A DNA stretch of 64,000 nt, from contig CM041203.1 in the NCBI GenBank assembly GCA_023078555.1, forward strand, positions 1,073,481 through 1,137,480, in the 5' to 3' direction. Positions within the stretch are counted from its first letter, which is position 1; each line of letters starts with the position of its first letter. Shown here one piece after another: positions 20,901 through 46,327 of the stretch. Source of the DNA: Ulva prolifera (lineage: Eukaryota > Chlorophyta > Ulvophyceae > Ulvales > Ulvaceae). The notes beneath the pieces are model-generated. The model was given only the letters and a program-made list of their open reading frames with translations. It searched no databases and was not told the origin of the DNA. The position numbers and the translations under genes were made by a program.

Positions 20901-23900
20901 GGCACGGTGAGCAACGTGACCGAGGCGATGGCGTGGCTCGGGTACAGCTACCTGCACGTGCGCTTGCACCGCAACCCCCTCGCGTACGGCATCACGCCGG
21001 AGCAGCTCGCGGCGGACCCGTCGCTGGACTCGCACCGCCGGGGCCTCGTGGAGCACGCCGCGAAGGTGCGCATCTGCGTGTGCCCGTGTGTCGGTGAGCG
21101 CTGGCTGATGGGCAACGCATGTTTCAATCGTGTGAATGGGTGAGCTCAAGAACATCTCTTAGGACGGGTCTCACACACGCGGTTTCACCTAACTGCTGTC
21201 TGTCCCCATGCGCTGCCTCCTGCATGCGTAGTGTATATTATGCCGTGGGTCTGCATGCATAGACGGGGCCGCGTGTAGCCACCACCGCCTCGCTGCGGTA
21301 TGGCAGCCGCAGTCACACGGCAGGCGCTGAATCTGTGTGGGTGCCACCCGCCACAATTTGAAGGCCGCTTGTGAGAGGGCCATGCGCAACGCACAAGCTG
21401 TTGCCTCGCACGCAGCGCAGGAGGGGCGACCTCCATTTGAATCGATATCGCTGCATCTATGTGTACATGGGGGGTGCGCCTCGCCGCACCCCACGACGAC
21501 TTCGTAATTGATTCGTCAAGGAGTGGCCGTCCCTCGCCAGCAGACGCTTTCAGCAATGTGCAACACTCAGCCCCCCCCTGTGGTACTGCAGACGCTGGAG
21601 GCGTGCAAGATGGCGCGCTTCGACGGCAAGTCGGGCAACCTCTACATGACGGACCTCGGCCGCATCGCCTCGCACCTCTACATCCAGCACGCCTCCATCC
21701 AGATCATCAATGAGTCCTTCGGCCCCGCGATGACGCTCGAGGACCTCTTCTACCTCATCTCGCGCTGCGCGGAGTTTGAGAGCCTGCGGGTGCGGGACGA
21801 GGAGGTCCCCGACCTCGAGAAGCTGCGCGACCGCTACTGCCAGGTCGGCCTGAAGGAGGGGCTCAGCTCGCGCGAGGGCAAGGCGCAGGTCCTGCTGCAG
21901 GTGCGTCTGCCGTGCCACATGCATGGTGCTCATGCATGCGATCTGCTTGGTGGGACCGACAACGCGCCGGCCGTTCCTCCTCCAGTGAAGGCGTGCCGCG
22001 ACGTCCGGCGCTGCGGCATCGAGGCCATGGCTGCATGCTTCTAGGTCTGCAGGTGATCTGTGCAGAGCGTATGTAGTTGCAAAGGACAGAGGCCGGGCAT
22101 CGAGCCGTTTCTCGGAATCCACTCGCAAATCCACTCAGTCATCGCACTAGGCCGGGCACGAGCGCATACCACAGCCCTGCCGGTGATTCCAGCCAACGAT
22201 TGAAGCCCCGCACGGAGCACAATCGCGTTCCCTTTGCACAACGCCACACTCAACCGGCGCAAAGCGTTCGTCACAGGAGCGTATGTATGTACGTATGCAT
22301 GCTGATTGCGCAGCCATGTCCACAGGGACATTGGCAACCCTGACACGCACGCTCACCTGTGCGCCCGGCCCTGCGCAGACCCGCCGCGCCGCCACAGCCG
22401 CAGCTGAGCGTGTGCGCCGCGTGTGCAGACGTTCATCAGCCGCGGCCGCGTGGAGTCGTTCTCGCTGATCGCGGACATGCTGTACGTCGGCGACAACGCG
22501 CCGCGGCTCGCGCGCGCCCTCTTTGAGATCGCGCTGCGCAACCAGTGGGTCGGCACCGTCGCGCTCTGCCTCGATGTCACCAAGATGCTCGACAAGCGCC
22601 TCTGGCGCGAGCAGCACCCCCTCTGGCAGTTCCCGACGCTTCTCGAGGACCACTACGTCACCAAGCTCGAGAAGTTCGGGCTCACCCCGGACGTGCTCTA
22701 TGACATGGACGCCTCCGTGCGCCCTCCCCCTCCACACATGCACATTGGCTGGCGTGCTCTTCGGTCGTGTGCATGCATGTGGAGCATGCATGTGCATTGC
22801 GGCAGCTCTGCATTGGCCGCTAGTTGCCCGCCGTCCTGCCAGCCGGGGCTCTCGTTCGTGCCCCGCATCTGCCTTGTAAGCGTTGAACTTGGGGATCTTT
22901 GCACCGCAAGATATATGTATGCACATCGCGGGTGCGTCGGTGTGGGGGCTTTGGGTTCTGCTTGTGCTAGATGTGGCGTGGGCGCGTTGTGCTGCGGTGG
23001 TGGACATGTTCTTGTGACGCTAGCTATTTCCGCAGTGCTGCCCGCCTCGCAGCCTCCGTCCTTGTGCCACATTGCGTGTCTGTTACAAGGACAGAGAGGC
23101 AGGTAGCACCGCAAGACACAAACAGGGGCACCACACACGCAAGCAACCGCTGGCGCCCACCACGGAACGACACATCGCGTGTGTGAAAGCAGGGGCATGC
23201 ATGCAGGAGCTCGGCAGCATGCTGCGCCACCCCGCGGGCGGGCGCAAGATCAAGGACGCGCTGCTCTTCCTGCCGCGCATCGGCATCTCGTGCACCATCG
23301 CGCCGATCACTCGCACCGTGCTGCGCGTCGTGCTCACGCTGCGGCCGGAGTTCCAGTGGCGCGACAGCGCGCACGGCGCCGCGATGCGCTGGGTCCTCTG
23401 GGTCGAGGACTCCCAGAACGACATGATCTACCACAACGACGTGTGGACGCTGACGAAAAAGATGATGCAGGTGCGCGCCGGGCCCCCGCAGCGCACAGCA
23501 CGCAGCACGCAGCACGGTCATGCCAGTGCGCGATGTTCGTGCCGTTGCACCTCATGCACAGCCCCGCCGCGCATGCATGTTGGATTCATCCGTTCACTTG
23601 GCCTCGAGGCAGCGCGCAACCAGTGTTGGAGGCTCACGGCGGCATGTATCTAGTCTTCATGCTATCATACGCGCGGGTGCCGCGCGGAGTGCTGACGCCT
23701 GGGATCCCGCTACGCGACAGCCCGCGCCGGTGCTACCCTCACCAGACCCGCGCCGCGTGCAGGAGCGTGAGCACCGCGTGACGTTCACCATCCCGCTGTT
23801 CGAGCCGCTCGCGAGCCACTACTACGTGCGCCTCGTGTCGGAGGCGTGGCTGCACGCGGAGTCCTTCGCGGAGCTGCGCCTGCACGGCCTGCGCCTGCCG

Positions 23901-26900
23901 GCGATGGCGCGGCCGCACACCGACCTCCTGCCGCTCGACCCGCTGCCCCGCGCCGCCCTCGGCCACCCCGACTACGAGGCGCTGTACAAGGCCCGCTTCA
24001 CGCACTTCAACCCGATCCAGACGCAGGCGTTCCACACGCTGTACCATACGGACGAGAGTGTCCTGCTTGGCGCGCCCACCGGTGCGCCTCGGCAGCCGCC
24101 GCTTGTCAGGCAGTGTTGGGTCATCGGGCCCGACCACATAGAACAATTCCGAAATTGCAGGTCTAAATTTGGGGTGGCGGCCCCGGAAATGCCGCAGAGC
24201 GACCCAACACTGGTGTCAGGATCTCCCCACCTCATGCTGTTCTTGCTCACTGCGAAGTCGCAGTGGAGCTGGCGGGTCTGCAGTGGCCACACCATTGCAC
24301 CATCATTGCAGTCAACGATGTCCGCTCACTTCTCAGTTTGTCTCTCTCACATTGCGGACTCATGCGAGCGATGTGTCCGGGTTGATGCCGGGACATTTGA
24401 CCTGGGCTTGGCCTTTGCACTCACGCAATTCTCCCATGATGGAGTCAGCGCAGTGATGTCATCAGTCCACGCCAAGGGGGTCATGACAACAACTCCCCGC
24501 GCATGGCATGTTGCATGCATGCATCTGCCGCTGCCCATGTCACAGAGCATTCACCGGCACCTCAGCGCCGCCGCACGCGCGCATGCAGGTTCCGGCAAGA
24601 CCATCTCCTCCGAGCTCACCATGCTGCGCGTCTTCCTGCACTACCCCAAGGAAAAGGTCCTCTACATCGCGCCGCTCAAAGCCCTCGTGCGCGAGCGCAT
24701 GTCCGACTGGGGCCCCGGCCTCTGCCGCAGCCTCGGCAAGCGCCTCGTGGAGCTCACCGGCGACTTCACGCCCGACGTCGCCGCACTTCTCGCCGCCGAC
24801 GTCATCGTGTGCACACCGGAGAAGTGGGACGGCATCTCGCGCAGCTGGCAGGCGCGGGCGTACGTGCGCTCCGTGCGGCTTGTCGTGATGGACGAGATCC
24901 ACCTGCTGGGGTCGGAGCGGGGGCCGACGCTCGAGGTGATCGTGTCGAGGATGCGGTATATTTCTGGGATCACCGGGCGGCCGGTGCGGTTTGTGGGGCT
25001 GTCGACGGCGCTTGCGAATGCGCATGACCTCGCCGCCTGGCTCGGCGTGAAGCCCTCAGTGCGTCTCCCTCGCTTGCACAGCATTCCCTGCAGCACTGCG
25101 TTTGATAGTAAAGTGTTGTGTAAAGGCCGGGCAGAGTTGCCGCGGGCGCAGTCGCGTCGCTCGTCGCTAGTCATCAGGACTGGGATGATCTGGTGGGGAC
25201 GGTCACCAGCACACAAGCAGCTCGGCCCGTTTGTGAATGAGTGTTGTGGGATGACAGGCGCTCAGTGATGTATCGGCGCCACTGTATCAACGGTGTCCAC
25301 ATGCGCATCGCAAACTCGTTGCCATACCAGCTGGAACGAAAGTTCTGACAACCCTGTGGAACGGTCAACAGTGACCTGTCCAACAGGGCAACATCGTGGC
25401 TCATACCCGGACCGCAACTCCCGGGCCTCCCTGCCGCCCCTATGCATGAGTGGGTCTCGTGTGGCTACAGGGGCTGTTCAATTTCCGCCCGGCGGTACGG
25501 CCGGTGCCGCTGGAGGCGCACATCCAGGGCTACCCCGGCAAGTTCTACTGCCCGCGCATGGCGACGATGAACAAGCCGGCGTACGCGGCGGTGCAGACGC
25601 ACTCGCCGGCCAAGCCGGTGCTCGTGTTTGTGTCGTCGCGGCGGCAGACGCGCCTCACCGCCCTCGACCTCATCGCCTTTGCTGCCGCAGACATGCGGCC
25701 GTCACAGTGGGTGCACATGCCCGAGCCGGAGCTCGAACAGGTGCGGCCGCCCTGCCTCTAAACCTCTGTAATGCACTCACCCATTGTACCTGCTGCGGAC
25801 GGGGCTTGTGGAGGCAATGCTGTGTAGTCTACTTTGGTGTCGTTCCATGGCCTGAGCTCTTTGCAACTTTCTTGCTTCGATGCATCTCCCGGACGGCGGC
25901 CCCGACATGCTCATGCCCCGGCCCATGTAGCGATCGCGCCGTCGATCCGACCTCGACCACCTCCCGCATGAGCTGCCAACTCGCAAAGCTGTCGACACGG
26001 GCAGCTGTGCCTCCGCTCCTTGCCTGAGGCATGCATGTGCGACGCATGCTATGGTACGTAGCGCACAGCAGCGTAAACGGCATCACACCACGGGGCCATG
26101 CATGCATGCAGGCGCTGACGGCGGTGAAGGATCCGCACCTGCAGCACACGCTGCGCTTCGGCATCGGGCTGCACCACGCCGGCCTGAACGAGCGCGACCG
26201 CCAGCTCTCCGAGGAGCTGTTCTGCGCGCAGAAGATCCAGGTGCTCGTGGCGACGTCGACGCTCGCGTGGGGCGTCAACACGCCGGCGCACCTCGTCATC
26301 ATCAAGGGCACTGAGTTCTTTGACGGCAAGTCCAAGCGGTGCGATTCCCTGATCTACACCGACCCTCCTCAGGCTCCGATTTTTGAACTGATGCCGTTAG
26401 GATTCCGATGTCTTGTAGTATGCCGTGGTGCTCTGCAACGCAACTGCCCGAGCATTTGTAGTTTGTTCCCTCTGCCTCCTGCCGTGGACACTGTATGCTA
26501 ACGTAGCTGTTGCAGCTGTGGACGTTGCCCTGGGCTGTTGCTTCTGTGCATTGGGGACAAGCGGTCATTGCAGACGGCAGATCAGGTCCTTTGCCTAGAT
26601 GCGGTTGCTCCTGTGCGCACGACTCGACTCCGCCGCTGGAGCAGTGCAAGGTGAACTCCACTTTGCAAACTGCCGCTTGCACAACATGCACAAGTGGCGC
26701 ACCCCACAGACGTATGCGGCCACGAGGGCATCACGCCACTGTCCGCGGTGCAGGTATGTAGACTACCCGATCACCGACGTCCTCCAGATGATGGGCCGCG
26801 CCGGCCGGCCGCAGTTCGACCGCACCGCGAAGGCCGTCATCATGGTGCACGAGCCGAAGAAGGGCTTCTACAAGAAGTTCCTCTACGAGCCGTTCCCCGT

Positions 26901-39046: not shown

Positions 39047-42000
39047 ATGGCGTCTGATGTGGCGAACACAAGAAAACAAGTTGTCAGGACTTTAGATCCT
39101 GTTTCAAATCTCATATTTGACGTGTCCTTCCGTCGCCTTCGAGTTGCAAAGCACCGAGCTGCGGCAGTCAGCCCTGCTCCCTCGCGGACCCAGCATCACG
39201 CCAATGGTACAGCAGGCTCTAGTACAAGCCCATCTACTCTTCGCTTCCCCTTCAGTAGGCGTGCTGGAGCAGGTGGCACTGCATCTCAGGCACCACAACC
39301 GCGTTCCGATGCTGCGCCAGATTCAAACACCAATACACCTGGTCAGCGGTTTGCATTTTTAAACAGGCAAGGAAGGGCTGGAAATGCTGAGACAGAGCGT
39401 CCTGGGGCTCAAGATACTGATGCAAGTACACGTGGAGCGCTCCTGAACATTTTCAAGAGGCGCGGAGCATCTGGAGCTGCCAATACACAAGGAGACTCTG
39501 CTGGTGCAATGGAAAACTCGGAACCCAACGCCAACAGCACGCTTCGGCGCCTCTCCTTCTTCAACAGGCGACCTGCCATGAAATCCGATCAGCAGGAATC
39601 TGAACAGGACGCCAGTGACGTCCCTGCAACGGGCGCAGCTGAAGACCCACAGTCGACCACGGATGCCAACCCCGCCGACATTCAGGGGGAAGCAAACCTT
39701 CCAGCTCATCATACGTCCGTACTGGTCGTCGACGAGGGCGGGAGCATACGCAAACTGGACGGGCCTTGTCCTCAGCAGGAGTTTTTCTCAATCTCCCAGA
39801 GTATCAGCTGGCAGCAGAAAATACCAAACCGGCTGCAGGTGCACTGAGCCATCTCGTCAGACCTTCGCACCATGATTCTTGCATACTTGCGCGACTGTGA
39901 TCTTCATTCCACAGGCTTGCAGGTCAGTCAGACAGAGGAGCAGTTGGCAGTAGACAGCAGGCAACTCTCACGCCCATCTGAGCACATGTCTCAAAGGAAC
40001 AGGTACCGATCTGTCTCTCACGAACCCCGCATCAGCTTCCACCACCAGCTGCAATGCAGCTGGACGCTCCAGTCTTGTATGTGACGTGCAGTGATGGATC
40101 GGATGGCAACCTGGGCAGCGTGATATTCACTGCTGCTGCAGACGACGCCTTCTCCCAGCAGTATGAGCGCAACAGGCGCATCTGCACCTCAGGGCATGAG
40201 CAGCAGCTTGTTGACAGGGGCAGTCTTCACACCTCTGACACGCACGACGTGGCTCTCAGCTTCCCTGCTGAGCCCCACGTGTCCAGCACCGGCCCAACCA
40301 GCACCATCGCCCAGCGCGCTAGCTCCCAACAGTACCAGGTGAGCTCTCTGCAGCACACCACATGGTCCACGACTGGTACATGCTCTGGTACATGTACAGT
40401 AAAGTAAATTTGAAGCTACCGAGCCGTATCCTGAAGAGGACATTGTCAACTCCAAATTAACATCACATATGCCGAAGGGGTAAACCACCTGGAAACCCCC
40501 CTCAGACGACCGTACGCAACTCACAGTGCCCCCTCCTGTGCTCAGCGAGGTGGTCACGCACGGCCGTTTCAATTGCCCAAAGCGCACGCAGAACATGTGG
40601 TCTACGAATGGGTCCAGGGACGTGTCTGTTGCGGGACATCAGCAAACGGATAGCACAGTGCTGCCTTGAGGAGCACCTGCGCAGGATCAGCATTCACTCG
40701 TTTCTCGCATGTTGACACATCACGGGTGTGTCAGCACCCACAAGATAAGCATGCCCAGGTATTCTTCATCCTGGCAGACCTCAACTGGGAAGCGGAGGAC
40801 CCCAACGCAGATCCAGAGCATCGGCTGCTGCTGTGCGCCCAGGCCTTCAAGGATGGAACTATACAACTGCAGCCGCCTGTGCACACGAGGCAGCAGCACG
40901 AGAGCCAGCTTGGGACCCACGGCGGATGGCGGAAGCTGCACGACCGCCAGGGCGGGCTGTACGAGTACAAGATATCGATCCGCGCGTCCGGCGGCGGGGA
41001 CGACAGCATTTCAGAGCGCAAGCAGCAGCTGTGGGAGGAGCACGAGCGGCAGCACGCGGCCCGCGCGCACCGTGGGATGCTCGGCAAGTTCCTCCGCCCG
41101 CGCGGCTCGAGGCTCGCGGTCCTCGGGGAGATCCTCGCGGCCGGTGGCTTTGAGGGCGCCCGGCTGTACGTGGAGTTTGCGCTGCGGTTCCCGTCGGACT
41201 TGTGGGTGCTCAAGGGCCCTCAGTGGCTACTGGCGCAGCATGCGGCTCTGGAGGGCCAGTTTGACGAGGAGGGAGTCTGCCATGTGCGCACCGCGCTGCA
41301 TTGGGGTTGCAGATTTCCCCGGGGTGGAGCCGTTGGAGGCGCACCAACGTGCATGGACGCGGACCGAGCAGTGGATATGGGGGCGTGGGTGTGCAGGTGG
41401 CTGGCTGCACGCAGCTGTGTAGTGGGCGGTGGGTGCCGGGCCGCTTCACGGACCCGACGGCGGGATCGTTCGTGGCCAACCTGTGCCACCCGCTCGAGTT
41501 TGAGCTGGAGCTGAGGGAGCACAAGCGGCTGCCGGCGGACCTCCTGCCGACAGACTTCCCCACGCTCTTCTTCGAGGTCGACCTCTTGCGCATCTTCTGC
41601 AGTGCCGTACACTTGCCTGCACACGGGAGCGCGCTTCCCCAGCTGGACTGGCCCACACATCCTGTGGAATGCTGGTGCTTATTTAGCCAGTCAGTTAATC
41701 AGTGCTTCTGGTGAATTTCTGGTGTTCTGAATTTACCATTGGTTATCGCATCTGCCCGTTAACGGAATGGAATCTGTGAAAAGTACTGGTGTGCGCGTTG
41801 AGAAATATTGTGGCTACTGGTGTGCGCGTTGAGAAATATTGTGGCTACAGGTGCACAACATGGACGGCATGCTGCGCTCCTCCCCGCAGGGCTACTGCCT
41901 GCTGCCCCTCGCGCCGCACTGCCCCGGCAGCGCGACGCACACCCTGCAGGCCTGGCGCCCCGCGCTCACGCCGCAGCAGCGCGTGTCGGAGTTCTTCCTC

Positions 42001-44629
42001 GGGGGCGCCCCGGAGCTGCAGAGCGTCGCGTTTGTGGGCTACCCGGCCAGCGGGCCGCCGGAGTACGTGGCCGGGAGGACGCCGCTGGTGAAGCTCGCGA
42101 CGGCGAGCGAGGGCGCCGGCTGGCTGCGCGTGCGCACGCACTGCGCCCTGCAGTACTCAGACCCGTGCGCTGCACCACCTCTGCGCAGCTGCGGCTGCGG
42201 GGCTCCGCCGCGTGAATGTGCAGTACCCCCACGGAGCCGTCGGCTGTGCTGTGTACGATCGCCGTCGGTCCGATGGAGGCCCTTGCTTCCTGGAGTACCT
42301 TTGCAACAGGGCGATGCCGTGATATGCAATGGATGCATGGTTGCATGATCATATGTATGTTTTGGAACATTGACATATTTTGTACTGAATGGGGCATCCA
42401 AGCCACACTCTGCTGTGACCTCGGGAGCGCTGGGTGTGCAGGGACATGCATCCGCGGCGGCGGGGCGTGCTCGCGCTGGGGCAGGCGGGCGTGCCCGCCC
42501 CGAAGAGCACGCACCGCTCGAAGCTGGAGACGATCGAGGAGATCGTGGCGCATGCGGGGCAGTACATCCAGCACGTCACGGAGCACGACCCGAAGGGCGG
42601 GGAGCTGCGCGCGGCCGCGCTCGCGCGGCACACGGCGCGGCTGCGGCAGCGCCACAGCGCCCCGGACGGCGCCGAGCTGACGGTGCTGCCCGCCGCGATC
42701 GAGGCGGTCGCGCGCACGCGGGTGTTCCGGCCCCGCATCGTGGAGCAGCCGGCCGACGTGCACGCGGAGATTGGCTCCGTAGCGGAAGTCCAGCTATCGG
42801 TGCAGGCTCAGGTGCGCCCCGCCTGTACAGGTATACATAAGTATGATGCAGCTGCGGTTTTCTGTGGCTGCGCCTGCGAATCAACGGACTCATGCATGCA
42901 CTTGTAGGTAGGTCACCATGGTCAACCGGCGCGCGCTCCCAACACAACGTGGGTAGCTCTTGCAATGCTGTATCATGACAGGGCTTTGCGGCCGTACACT
43001 GTAAAAAGACACGTGTCGTGCAGTCTTTGAGGATCTTCTGCACTTTCCTGGAATGCTGTCCACCACATGACATTACCAGCAGTGTTGGCAAAATACGCGT
43101 ATTCTCGAAAAAAACGTATGAAATACGCGTATTATGGCCACATCGTATGGAATACGGCATACGTTGGACTTGGCCAGCGTGTGGGCGCCTAAGTGCTAGC
43201 GCTGTACACAGACTGCGCTTGTAGACGCTTGTCGACAAGCGCGTAGGCTCAATAGTCACCTGCCGCGGCCGCTGCGCTGCGCATGCCGCCACACAGAGCC
43301 TCGTGTAACGTTTAGTCGTGTCTGTAGTATTGTCAGAGGTCATGAGACATTGCGGCTTACGTGCAGCGTGCTGTTCACTGTGGCACGATGCAGCGGTTCT
43401 TGGGGAACAGGCCCGCGGCCGCGGGCCCTGCAGCGCAAAAGCGAGGGCGTGATGATGACTGGAAATCTCACGTAGATATTAAGGCATTGCAGAAATTGCA
43501 GAGCGCATCACTGCGCTGGGGCCAACGGCGTCGCCTTGTGAGCGCAACTGGTCTGCGTATGAGCATGTTGTGAGCAAGAAGCGCAACCGCCTGAGCGTAG
43601 ACAAGACTGAGAAGCTTGTTTATGTGTTCCAGAACCTGCGTACGCTGTATGCGACAGAGCACGCCAACCGTAGTGAGCTCTATGAGCAGATGTACTTCGA
43701 TGCATTTGCTTCGGAGGACGAGGGTGGAAGCAGTGATGCCAGCGACGAGGATGTTGCAACAGAATGAGCTGCTGTTGTCTTGGTGCATGCACAGATGCTC
43801 TGGTCGGCGGGGGCTGCGCCCCCGCACCCCCGTTGCTATGTTCCTGCCTCAAGTGCACTTTGACACACGTATTCCCCCACCGCAAACGTATTTGCATACC
43901 GTATTCGCTGCCCAGCGTATGCCATACGAAATACAAAAGTGCCAACACTGATTACCAGTGCGTGCAACAGTTGCTTGAGTGACCTATGACTCACATGAGC
44001 GACATGCCCACGACTGCACATGCGTCTCCAGGGCGAGGGGCTGAAGTACCAGTGGCACAAGGACGGCTCAGCGCTGGAGAGCGAGACCGCGGCCGCCGCC
44101 ACGCTGCTCCTCAGCAGCCCCTGCGTCGAGGACTGCGGCTTCTACCACGTCGTCGTGTCCAACGAGGCGGGGGCCGTGCAGTCCGCGCGGGTGCACGTCA
44201 TCATCAAGCCGGAGTCCGTCAGGCCTCTGCAGGCAGCCGTGTCGATGGCGACCTCGCTGTCGCGGGCCGGGCGCGCGGCCGCGCGGCGCCGCAAGCTGCG
44301 CGAGGGCCAGCTGCAACAGGCAGCCTCGATGCTCGCTGACAGCCCGTCACGGCTCGAGTGCGCGTCTGCTCCGGTGCCCATGTACAGCCCAGTATTTCTG
44401 CAACTACCGTGCCGTATCCTGAAGAGGACGCTGGCAAATCCGAATTGATGGGACCACGTGTGTGGCGGGTGGCGCTGACGGGGTGTGTGCGTGCAGGGAG
44501 ATTCAGCCGGCGCCCAGCTCGGGTGCTGCACAGGGGCTCGGGGATGACGATGCAGCTGCGGACATACAGCGGGTGCACAGTGGGGACGCAGATGCGGAGC
44601 AGGCCCAGGCGAGCTCGCAGGCGCTGTAG
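39047..44629 (+). CDS. MKS1: MKS1 homologue (B9 domain, ciliary transition zone) with a C-terminal Ig-like domain, about 9 exons
   Basis: MKS1 is part of the transition-zone complex that gates cilia. Exons: 39047-39838, 39923-~39949 (end uncertain), ~40061-40338, 40759-41283, 41397-41576, 41851-42164, 42442-42811, 44032-44373 and 44501-44629 (acceptor at 44497 is the alternative). Family landmarks are LDPVSNLIFDVSFRRLRV near the N-terminus, ISWQQKI, VFFILADLNWEAEDP and LYEYKISI in the middle, then the B9 domain: FVANLCHPLEFELEL, TLFFE|VHNMDGM, GYCLLPL, LQAWRP, RVSEFFLGGAPEL. An insertion of about 150 low-complexity Ser/Thr/Arg-rich residues follows the N-terminal motif. After the B9 domain, exons 7-8 encode a linker and a domain reading QPADVHAEIGSVAEVQLSVQ, LKYQWHKDGSALES, CGFYHVVVSNEAGAV, a typical Ig-superfamily fold with Trp and the C..D.G.Y region. 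Exon 7 also carries the linker, so the fusion is supported by phase. The last exon could be read in two ways. Confidence 0.85.
40396..40480 (+). repeat. Dispersed intronic repeat, copy C
   Basis: Begins GTACAGTAAAGTAAATTTGA, then GAGCCGTATCCTGAAGAGGA and AACTCCAAATTAAC. It lies in an MKS1 intron, in the sense direction. Confidence 0.7.
41784..41845. repeat. 31-bp tandem duplication at an MKS1 acceptor
   Basis: The unit TACTGGTGTGCGCGTTGAGA plus eleven more bases occurs twice with period 31. The second copy runs directly into the acceptor GGCTACAG|GTGCAC of exon 6, so the duplicated unit lies in the last part of the intron. The first copy has TACTGG where the acceptor has TACAGG. Confidence 0.9.
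43080..43950 (+). mobile_element. Non-autonomous hAT transposon in an MKS1 intron, 871 bp
   Basis: The ends are CAGTGTTGGCAAAATACGCG on the left and, read inward from the right, CAGTGTTGGCACTTTTGTAT: the first 11 bases match exactly. The element is flanked on both sides by ATTACCAG (43072-43079 and 43951-43958), a perfect 8-bp target duplication as made by hAT transposases. Sub-terminal regions repeat AATACGC/GTATT-type words. Inside, the plus frame 43483-43767 encodes the conserved hAT C-terminal dimerisation region: SPCERNWSAYEHV, VSKKRNRLS, EKLVYVFQNLRTLY, with an acidic tail. An ATG-initiated stub at 43388 (MQRFLGNR...) lies in another frame. The catalytic centre is absent, so this is a deletion derivative. 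The intact duplication indicates a fairly recent insertion. Confidence 0.92.
43483..43767 (+). pseudogene. Remnant of a hAT transposase C-terminus
   Basis: The frame has the hAT signature C-E-R-N-W-S followed by SKKRNRL and KLVY...NLR. It begins after an in-frame TAA at 43480 with no ATG and has lost the DDE catalytic region. It ends at a stop after an acidic D/E-S-rich tail. It is carried by the element 43080-43950 and is not expected to be active. Confidence 0.85.
44377..44465 (+). repeat. Dispersed intronic repeat, copy D
   Basis: Contains CATGTACAGCCC, then GTGCCGTATCCTGAAGAGGA and AAATCCGAATTGATGGGACC. It fills most of a roughly 125-bp MKS1 intron (44374 to 44496 or 44500), in the sense direction. 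Confidence 0.7.
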
Positions 44630-46327
44630 CCGTGTCAGTCATTGCAGGTGTATGGTCACTTGTCGACCGATGCCGGGCTTCACGAGTCATGCATATGGAC
44701 GGCTGGTCAGTCGCTCAGTGACTCGAGTGCTGTATTGTGCGGGTTGGTAGGGATACACATGGAATCACATGCAGTGGACAAGCATGTGCTAGCTGTTTTT
44801 AATCGCAGCATGTGTGTGTGCTACTCATGATTGCAATAGGACGCATCTGGCCGCCCGGCATCGATCTACTGCGTCAGCGCTCGAGCAAGTGCGTGCCTGC
44901 GACTCTGCCGTGTGTGGCCTCTGCAGGCACGGCTCTGAGGCACTGGGCAGGCGAGATGCGTCGGTGCATCTCAGGCAAGAGGGCTCTCCAGGGACAGGAG
45001 GGTGGCATCGTTCCTGCTTTGCCAATGCAGAACGCTTCTGTCACCTGCACAGTGCCTGCACGAGGTCCCCCTGCCTGGTTCTGCTCCAACCGATCCTACT
45101 TTGTTGCATTGTTCTGGCGAGGATGTGCGGCCAGACGCCCAAGTTGCTCCATGCCATGGGAGGGCATGTGCATGGGAGGGCATGTGCGAGAACCTTGCCT
45201 GTCTCGTTGCGCACACAGGCTGAGATCATTGAATGGCACGGATGTGATGTAGCTGAGACATCAGGCGCGCAAATGGTTGTCATCGGTCCGGGAGTGCAGT
45301 TTGCTGGCAAGCTCCCGTCAGCACTCCGTCCAGTGCCTTCACGAATTCGTTGTAGGATGTTGATTAATATCCTCAGATGATCTTAGCACGATGCGCTTTT
45401 GAGAGCAGAGCTGGGGGAGCCGGCCATGTGCACGCCTGCACAAACATGCAAGGCAGGCATGAACATTTCGGTGCATAGGCAAGGGCTTCTTCATCATGGC
45501 AGGGCACCGCTTGCATACGACATGGCAGCCCTGATTCAAGCTTGAAGAAATCAACCATTGGATTTCAAACGCCTGGCGTATCACGGGGGCTGTGCACAGA
45601 TGTTTGTTGAGCTGATTCCAGGCGCTCAGTTACGAAGAACTCCACAGCAGGTCAGCGATGCATTTATGCCGCAGTGCTGTAGCGTGTCTACAAGTGCTGT
45701 TTGCCAGCTGCACGCTTCTGAAAAACGGAGTTTCGCCTACACCGACGGAGACACAGTCCGAGACCATAAATTCCGTTCTCGCCATTAATTTCGCAACACT
45801 GTATCTTGTGTATCCGTGCTGCCAGGCCTGCTGCGTGCGTGCCCTATGCGGCTGGTCAACTCCGCTTCGCGAATGACGGGGCCGGGGCAGCGCGGACTTG
45901 GCTTCCTTTCATAAATCCAGGCTTCGAAGTTGATCCTATTCATCAGGCAATCGAGCCAAGCTTGATCATGCCGGCTGACTTGACCCCCGAGGGGAAGGCG
46001 GAAGCTGAACAGCTCCTGGGCGGACTGGGCATCAGCCCAAACGTTCTCACGTATGTTTACCTCCCACAAACTCTACTTGACCCATGCCGTGCCAGCGATG
46101 CCTGCCTCTCATTCGTGCGGATTCATTTCATGTGAGAGACGGCTCTCGCAACCCGACTTATAAATTTCATGCGCCAGGGGCGTATGTTCCGGTGCATGTG
46201 ATGCCCCCTTGATGTCCTGCGTGCCTGATCTATGAATCGTATGGCTTCCGAGTGATTTGCGGCCTTGCTGCCTGGAGCATCCCACAGTGGGAAGCGAGCA
46301 GCCACTGGATGCTGGCACTAGCATACC
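44630..46327. other. Region with scattered exon-like segments, no gene model
   Basis: On the plus strand, segments such as AEIIEWHGCDVAETSGAQMV (from about 45222, after CACACAG), MFVELIPGAQLRRTPQQ (about 45600-45650, after GCACAG) and FEVDPIHQAIEPSLIMPADL (about 45925-46060) look like exons. The last of these is also open on the minus strand (45785-46069). No family was recognised and the segments could not be joined reliably. A 16-bp exact tandem repeat lies at 45155-45186. Confidence 0.3.
45155..45186. repeat. 16-bp exact tandem repeat
   Basis: CATGGGAGGGCATGTG occurs twice head to tail without mismatch. Confidence 0.9.

Follow-up and report, generated by a model that had tools for sequence, protein, structure and literature searches.

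A gene model joining a B9 domain to an immunoglobulin-like domain in an MKS1-type gene of Ulva prolifera

MKS1 proteins carry a long stretch ahead of their B9 domain, and animal MKS1, which ends within roughly 60–120 residues past that domain, is not known to possess an immunoglobulin (Ig) domain. MKS1 is described as one of three B9 proteins that are non-transmembrane (PMC12807484), and the layout of B9D2 as a B9 domain at residues 2–118 plus a tail (PMC7859701). Most extracellular Ig domains carry a disulfide bond between strands B and F, whereas those inside cells depend on a hydrophobic core, and a Trp and a Tyr are invariant residues of the Ig core (PMC1352370). The I-set type is marked by a two-sheet Ig fold in which the A/A' strand is split.

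The window analysed here is a stretch of 64,000 nucleotides from the genome of U. prolifera. Exons 4 to 9 of an MKS1-type gene on its forward strand join at GT-AG introns, yielding a single open frame that ends in TAG (Table 1). An earlier note on this DNA had claimed that exons 6, 7 and 8 join in phase, and this holds, with the joined frame open to the stop. Translation of the joined model gave a protein of 969 amino acids in which a profile search placed B9-C2 at residues 477–684, with 68.1 bits against a cut-off of 27, and I-set at residues 791–868, with 24.9 bits against 23.7. The fusion of B9 and Ig within one gene is confirmed at the level of the gene model, for which the continuity of the domains, the phase and the codon bias together make a good case. 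The evidence base for the fusion is one genome, which totals 88.9 Mb over 44 contigs, with splicing inferred from sequence. An MKS1-type B9-Ig gene model is highly likely to be correct.

Table 1. Positions of the exons, the Ig-encoding part of exon 7, intron 7 and its inserted element, numbered from the first nucleotide of the window.
Feature	Position	Strand	Remarks
Tentative MKS1 exon 1	39047..39838	+	264 codons from ATG, in 271-aa open frame; GT donor at end
Tentative MKS1 exon	40060..40338	+	Phase 0 at both ends; from frame and splice sites; included in 969-aa model
Exon 4	40759..41274	+	Pre-B9 region and first part of B9; B9-C2 over cut-off with exons 5–6
Exon 5	41397..41576	+	Middle of B9; donor GTCGAC
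Exon 6	41851..42164	+	C-terminal half of B9; donor GTGCGC, phase 2
Exon 7	42442..42811	+	Linker (about 95 residues) followed by Ig strands A to B; donor GTGCGC, phase 0
Ig domain, 5' part	42728..42811	+	No Cys; Val codon 42800–42802 opposite strand B Cys of contactin-2
Intron 7	42812..44031	+	1220 bp; 341 bp minus inserted element and one target-site copy
Non-autonomous hAT-like element	43080..43950		871 bp; terminal inverted repeats of 11 bp; flanked on each side by the 8-bp duplication ATTACCAG
Exon 8	44032..44357	+	Ig strands C to G, then predicted long helix
Exon 9	44497..44629	+	Acidic tail, stop TAG; from frame and splice sites

The structure of the gene is uncertain at its N-terminal end. 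Of the approximately 476 residues that precede the B9 domain in the model, exon 4 contributes about 110, and the remainder come from exons that are tentative. The first of these gave no Pfam match and a codon bias resembling that of non-coding DNA (−0.88 bits per codon); open but without bias, it is either fast-evolving or mis-assigned, and its likeness to the MKS1 N-terminus is presumptive. A small exon may additionally lie near 39923–40012, ahead of the tentative exon that begins at 40060. Downstream of the gene, on the same strand, lies the N-terminal region of a glutaminyl-tRNA synthetase. Elsewhere in the window, at 23850–24899, a large helicase gene contains a DEAD-box region (PF00270, 62.3 bits).

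The B9 domain is complete only with exons 4, 5 and 6 joined. B9-C2 (PF07162) then scored 68.1–68.7 bits, the 68.1-bit match covering positions 2–162 of the 166 in the profile, while exons 6–9 without exons 4 and 5 yielded 31.4 bits and neither exon 5 nor the exon 4 region gave a B9 match in profile searches of each alone. When the whole genome was searched with B9-C2, this locus was recovered at 1115319–1115618 of contig C8, corresponding to 41839–42138 of the window, in exon 6. Other matches were located on contig C1 at 8123859 and 1960044, in genes which we take, from their motifs, to be B9D2-like and B9D1-like respectively; the trio of MKS1-, B9D1- and B9D2-like genes appears to be complete in this genome. 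An extra weak B9-C2 match (33.5 bits, one internal stop) was observed on the reverse strand of contig C2 at 3233437–3233688. No clear B9 reading frame was evident there by eye, and the match is perhaps a degenerate copy or due to chance.

Codon bias was scored using a table trained on 938 codons, from ten segments hand-picked by eye in other genes of the window. Exons 4, 5, 6, 7 and 8 yielded 0.20, 0.32, 0.44, 0.55 and 0.40 bits per codon respectively, the proposed frame being the best of six in all five cases, and the Ig part of exon 8 reached 0.68. The non-coding sequence scored comprised three introns (5, 6 and 7), the transposon and the 3' flank, none of which exceeded −0.62 in any of the frames. 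Exons 4–8 are coding in the proposed frames, as their codon bias marks. Exon 9 had a weak bias of −0.27, and one of its reverse frames reached −0.20.

A single Ig domain starts at approximately 42728 in exon 7 and ends at approximately 44211 in exon 8, in agreement with the two exons to which the earlier note had assigned it. As an isolated joined segment of 88 residues it matched I-set with 31.6 bits (E 1.8e-7) and Ig_3 with 30.4 bits (cut-off 30). Exon 8 alone gave 18.2 bits to I-set and exon 7 alone no match. Because the domain is complete only when both exons are joined, the exon 7/8 join is supported. In longer contexts the I-set score stays over its cut-off, at 26.8 bits for exons 6–9 as well as in the full model, while that of Ig_3 falls under its own (26.2 bits for exons 6–9 and 24.7 for the 969-residue model). 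The contribution of exon 7 was measured by shuffling its 28 Ig residues in six constructs: I-set scored 19.1–19.7 bits in five of these and 24.3 bits, just over the cut-off, in the sixth. Relative to the five, the exon 7 part adds approximately 12 bits. None of three constructs in which the Ig segment was fully shuffled gave a family match, and a chance Ig match is ruled out by the E-values together with the shuffles. Some 106 residues matching neither domain (684 to 791), mostly encoded by exon 7, separate B9 from Ig; the Ig domain therefore does not directly abut B9.

The core Trp of strand C (44053–44055) and Tyr of strand F (44143–44145) are kept, and the motifs KYQW and DCGFY align with contactin-2 and titin. 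AlphaFold2 modelled the product of exon 8 alone as five strands followed by a helix at residues 60–103 (mean pLDDT 62.8, pTM 0.41), with low confidence in the strands and values of 66–86 over most of the helix. Whole-genome searches with I-set and Ig_3 returned zero matches and missed this Ig domain itself, and both negatives are therefore uninformative. The equivalent search with Ig_2, which could miss Ig domains split by introns elsewhere, gave this exon as its sole match (22.2 bits, under the 27-bit cut-off). A second candidate Ig protein, on contig C3 (E 0.84), was rejected; its frame runs into TPR-like sequence by eye and has no Ig pattern.

Neither the sequence nor its alignments show any Cys among the Ig residues encoded by exon 7, and the disulfide between strand B and strand F therefore cannot form. 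Aligned with contactin-2, Val occupies both of the positions held by the disulfide Cys, that of strand F being encoded at 44149–44151. In the titin alignment Val falls at the strand F position as well, strand B lying in another register. No stretch even near transmembrane strength is present in the 969-residue model, where the best mean hydropathy over 19 residues was 1.06, inside the Ig domain itself. By simple hydropathy the N-terminus, encoded by the tentative first exon, is charged and has no obvious hydrophobic character indicative of a signal peptide. Because the B–F disulfide is missing and no transmembrane-like stretch occurs, the Ig domain is very probably cytosolic. The earlier note had offered adhesion or docking as its possible function; of these, docking is the better candidate, and adhesion fits poorly with the absence of Cys from the exon 7 part, the Val of strand F, the lack of a transmembrane stretch and the non-transmembrane nature of MKS1 as cited above.

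The explanation that we favour overall, and consider reasonably likely, is that of an MKS1 of the B9 complex equipped with a cytosolic Ig domain for docking or assembly. Under the same grade of likelihood, the protein would have approximately 970 residues, beginning with a long N-terminal region and the B9 domain. A linker (about 106 residues) would connect these to a single I-set-like Ig domain, after which a long helix is predicted and the chain ends in an acidic tail. Through its B9 domain the protein would join B9D1 and B9D2 in the B9 complex at the ciliary transition zone, and the C-terminal Ig domain, on the cytosolic side and free of disulfide, could act as a protein-docking or self-assembly module. 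By analogy with the roles of Ig domains in titin and other intracellular proteins, it might tie the B9 complex to a putative partner between the ciliary membrane and the axoneme, for example a component of the Y-links; the added Ig arm would itself be positioned between membrane and axoneme. For the docking or assembly function taken by itself the chances are about even. From within the cell, the Ig domain probably helps to keep the parts of the ciliary gate together, instead of sticking cells to one another. In a bolder form, to which we give tentative credence at most, a green algal lineage may have fused a disulfide-free cytosolic Ig domain to MKS1 and so equipped the B9 complex with a protein-binding arm of its own. 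Such an arm would extend from the B9 layer on the membrane side toward the Y-links or doublets, as a titin-like connector within the ciliary gate.

Of the alternatives, the one that survives best is that the Ig domain merely caps the C-terminus as a structural element with no partner of its own, and either stabilises the tail of MKS1 or is a passively tolerated addition. An exon 6 query against viral contigs and prokaryote genomes and an exon 8 query against viral contigs confirmed no relatives by which conservation of the domain could be shown. A PDB search with B9 plus linker returned one match at chance level (E 0.99). Set against a cap or passive addition are the open frame, the strong codon bias of the Ig part of exon 8, and the retention of core residues. 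These features argue against decay but not against a purely structural role, and we regard the cap as unlikely, if deserving of consideration.

A second alternative holds that two genes are present, with exon 6 or 7 as the last of MKS1 and with a separate transcript downstream that carries the Ig exons. TGTAA is the usual polyadenylation signal of green algae. On the forward strand between 39000 and 46000 it occurs only at 43000, in intron 7, and at 43304, inside the inserted element; from 44630 to 46000, after the MKS1 stop, it is absent from that strand. Transcripts might accordingly end inside intron 7 by premature polyadenylation. Enrichment of the motif in the window is no more than mild (58 occurrences on both strands against 43.8 expected, a count of 58 being reached by two of 100 shuffles) and its pattern is therefore a caution, not a disproof of the join. 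Two genes would also be compatible with the in-frame ATGs at 42446 and 44020 and with the observation that read-through from exon 6 meets a stop only at 42348. No known domain spans the exon 6/7 join, for which phase, splice sites and codon bias are the sole basis. Against this stands the Ig domain, which straddles exons 7 and 8 and is incomplete unless they are joined. The frame of exon 7 opens only at 42419, so that a separate transcript would need an ATG inside exon 7 or an extra 5' exon of its own. Furthermore, exon 7 encodes the linker as well as the initial strands of the Ig domain, and exons 4–8 have one codon bias in common. Two genes are in our judgement improbable.

The length of intron 7 provides no hint of a gene boundary, because a transposon has enlarged an intron of 341 bp; the long intron is probably the result of a recent insertion. 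Five loci of the element were compared, of which three, including this one, have a perfect 8-bp duplication and both ends; the other two have a right end without an exact match. Copies elsewhere comprise three on contig C2 at a rounded 100% identity and one on contig C1 at 98%. One open frame of the element resembles the hAT dimerisation region (17.3 bits, below the cut-off of 21.4). With its near-identical copies, the 871-bp element has probably been active recently.

An extracellular or adhesive Ig domain can be dismissed as extremely improbable: the Ig domains of contactin-2, Robo1 and sidekick are among the sequence matches, but so is intracellular titin, and the hydropathy of the model (its first exon tentative), the Cys-free exon 7 part and the description of MKS1 as non-transmembrane (PMC12807484) all speak against it.

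If the favoured reading of a cytosolic docking Ig domain is true, a cytosolic Ig domain of the muscle type would be present in an algal ciliary protein. In a lineage in which it can be deleted or used as bait, the added arm on MKS1 would provide a direct handle on the link made by the B9 complex. If green algal MKS1 generally has the Ig domain, the arrangement would merely be an overlooked feature of the family. Judged by title or the start of the abstract, no report of an MKS1/B9-Ig fusion was found among the matches listed from CC-licensed literature, and the same architecture could already be annotated in other algae.

Ig-like domains are also known from phages, in tail proteins and in Hoc-like decorations of the head. 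The Ig segment scored 37.0 bits to phrog_3995 and 32.0 bits to phrog_2973 against 31.6 bits to I-set, the scores coming from separate libraries, and the best PDB matches were 9ncf and 9c2d, also from phages, whose scores are totals over several repeats that individually reach no more than 23.8 bits. The phage domains differ in belonging to virion proteins without B9; judged from sequence, the similarity is at the level of the domain class and does not indicate where the Ig domain originated. With MKS1 the locus shares a full B9 domain, preceded in the model by a long and partly tentative N-terminal region, in a genome that also holds B9D1-like and B9D2-like genes. It differs past B9, where its C-terminal part carries an I-set-like Ig domain and a helix, the latter predicted. 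The Ig domain itself is most comparable to the intracellular I-set domains of titin, telokin and APEG-1 (PMC1352370), in scoring over the I-set cut-off, in keeping the core Trp and Tyr and in lacking the B–F disulfide; the difference is that here it occurs as a single copy, carried on a B9 protein.
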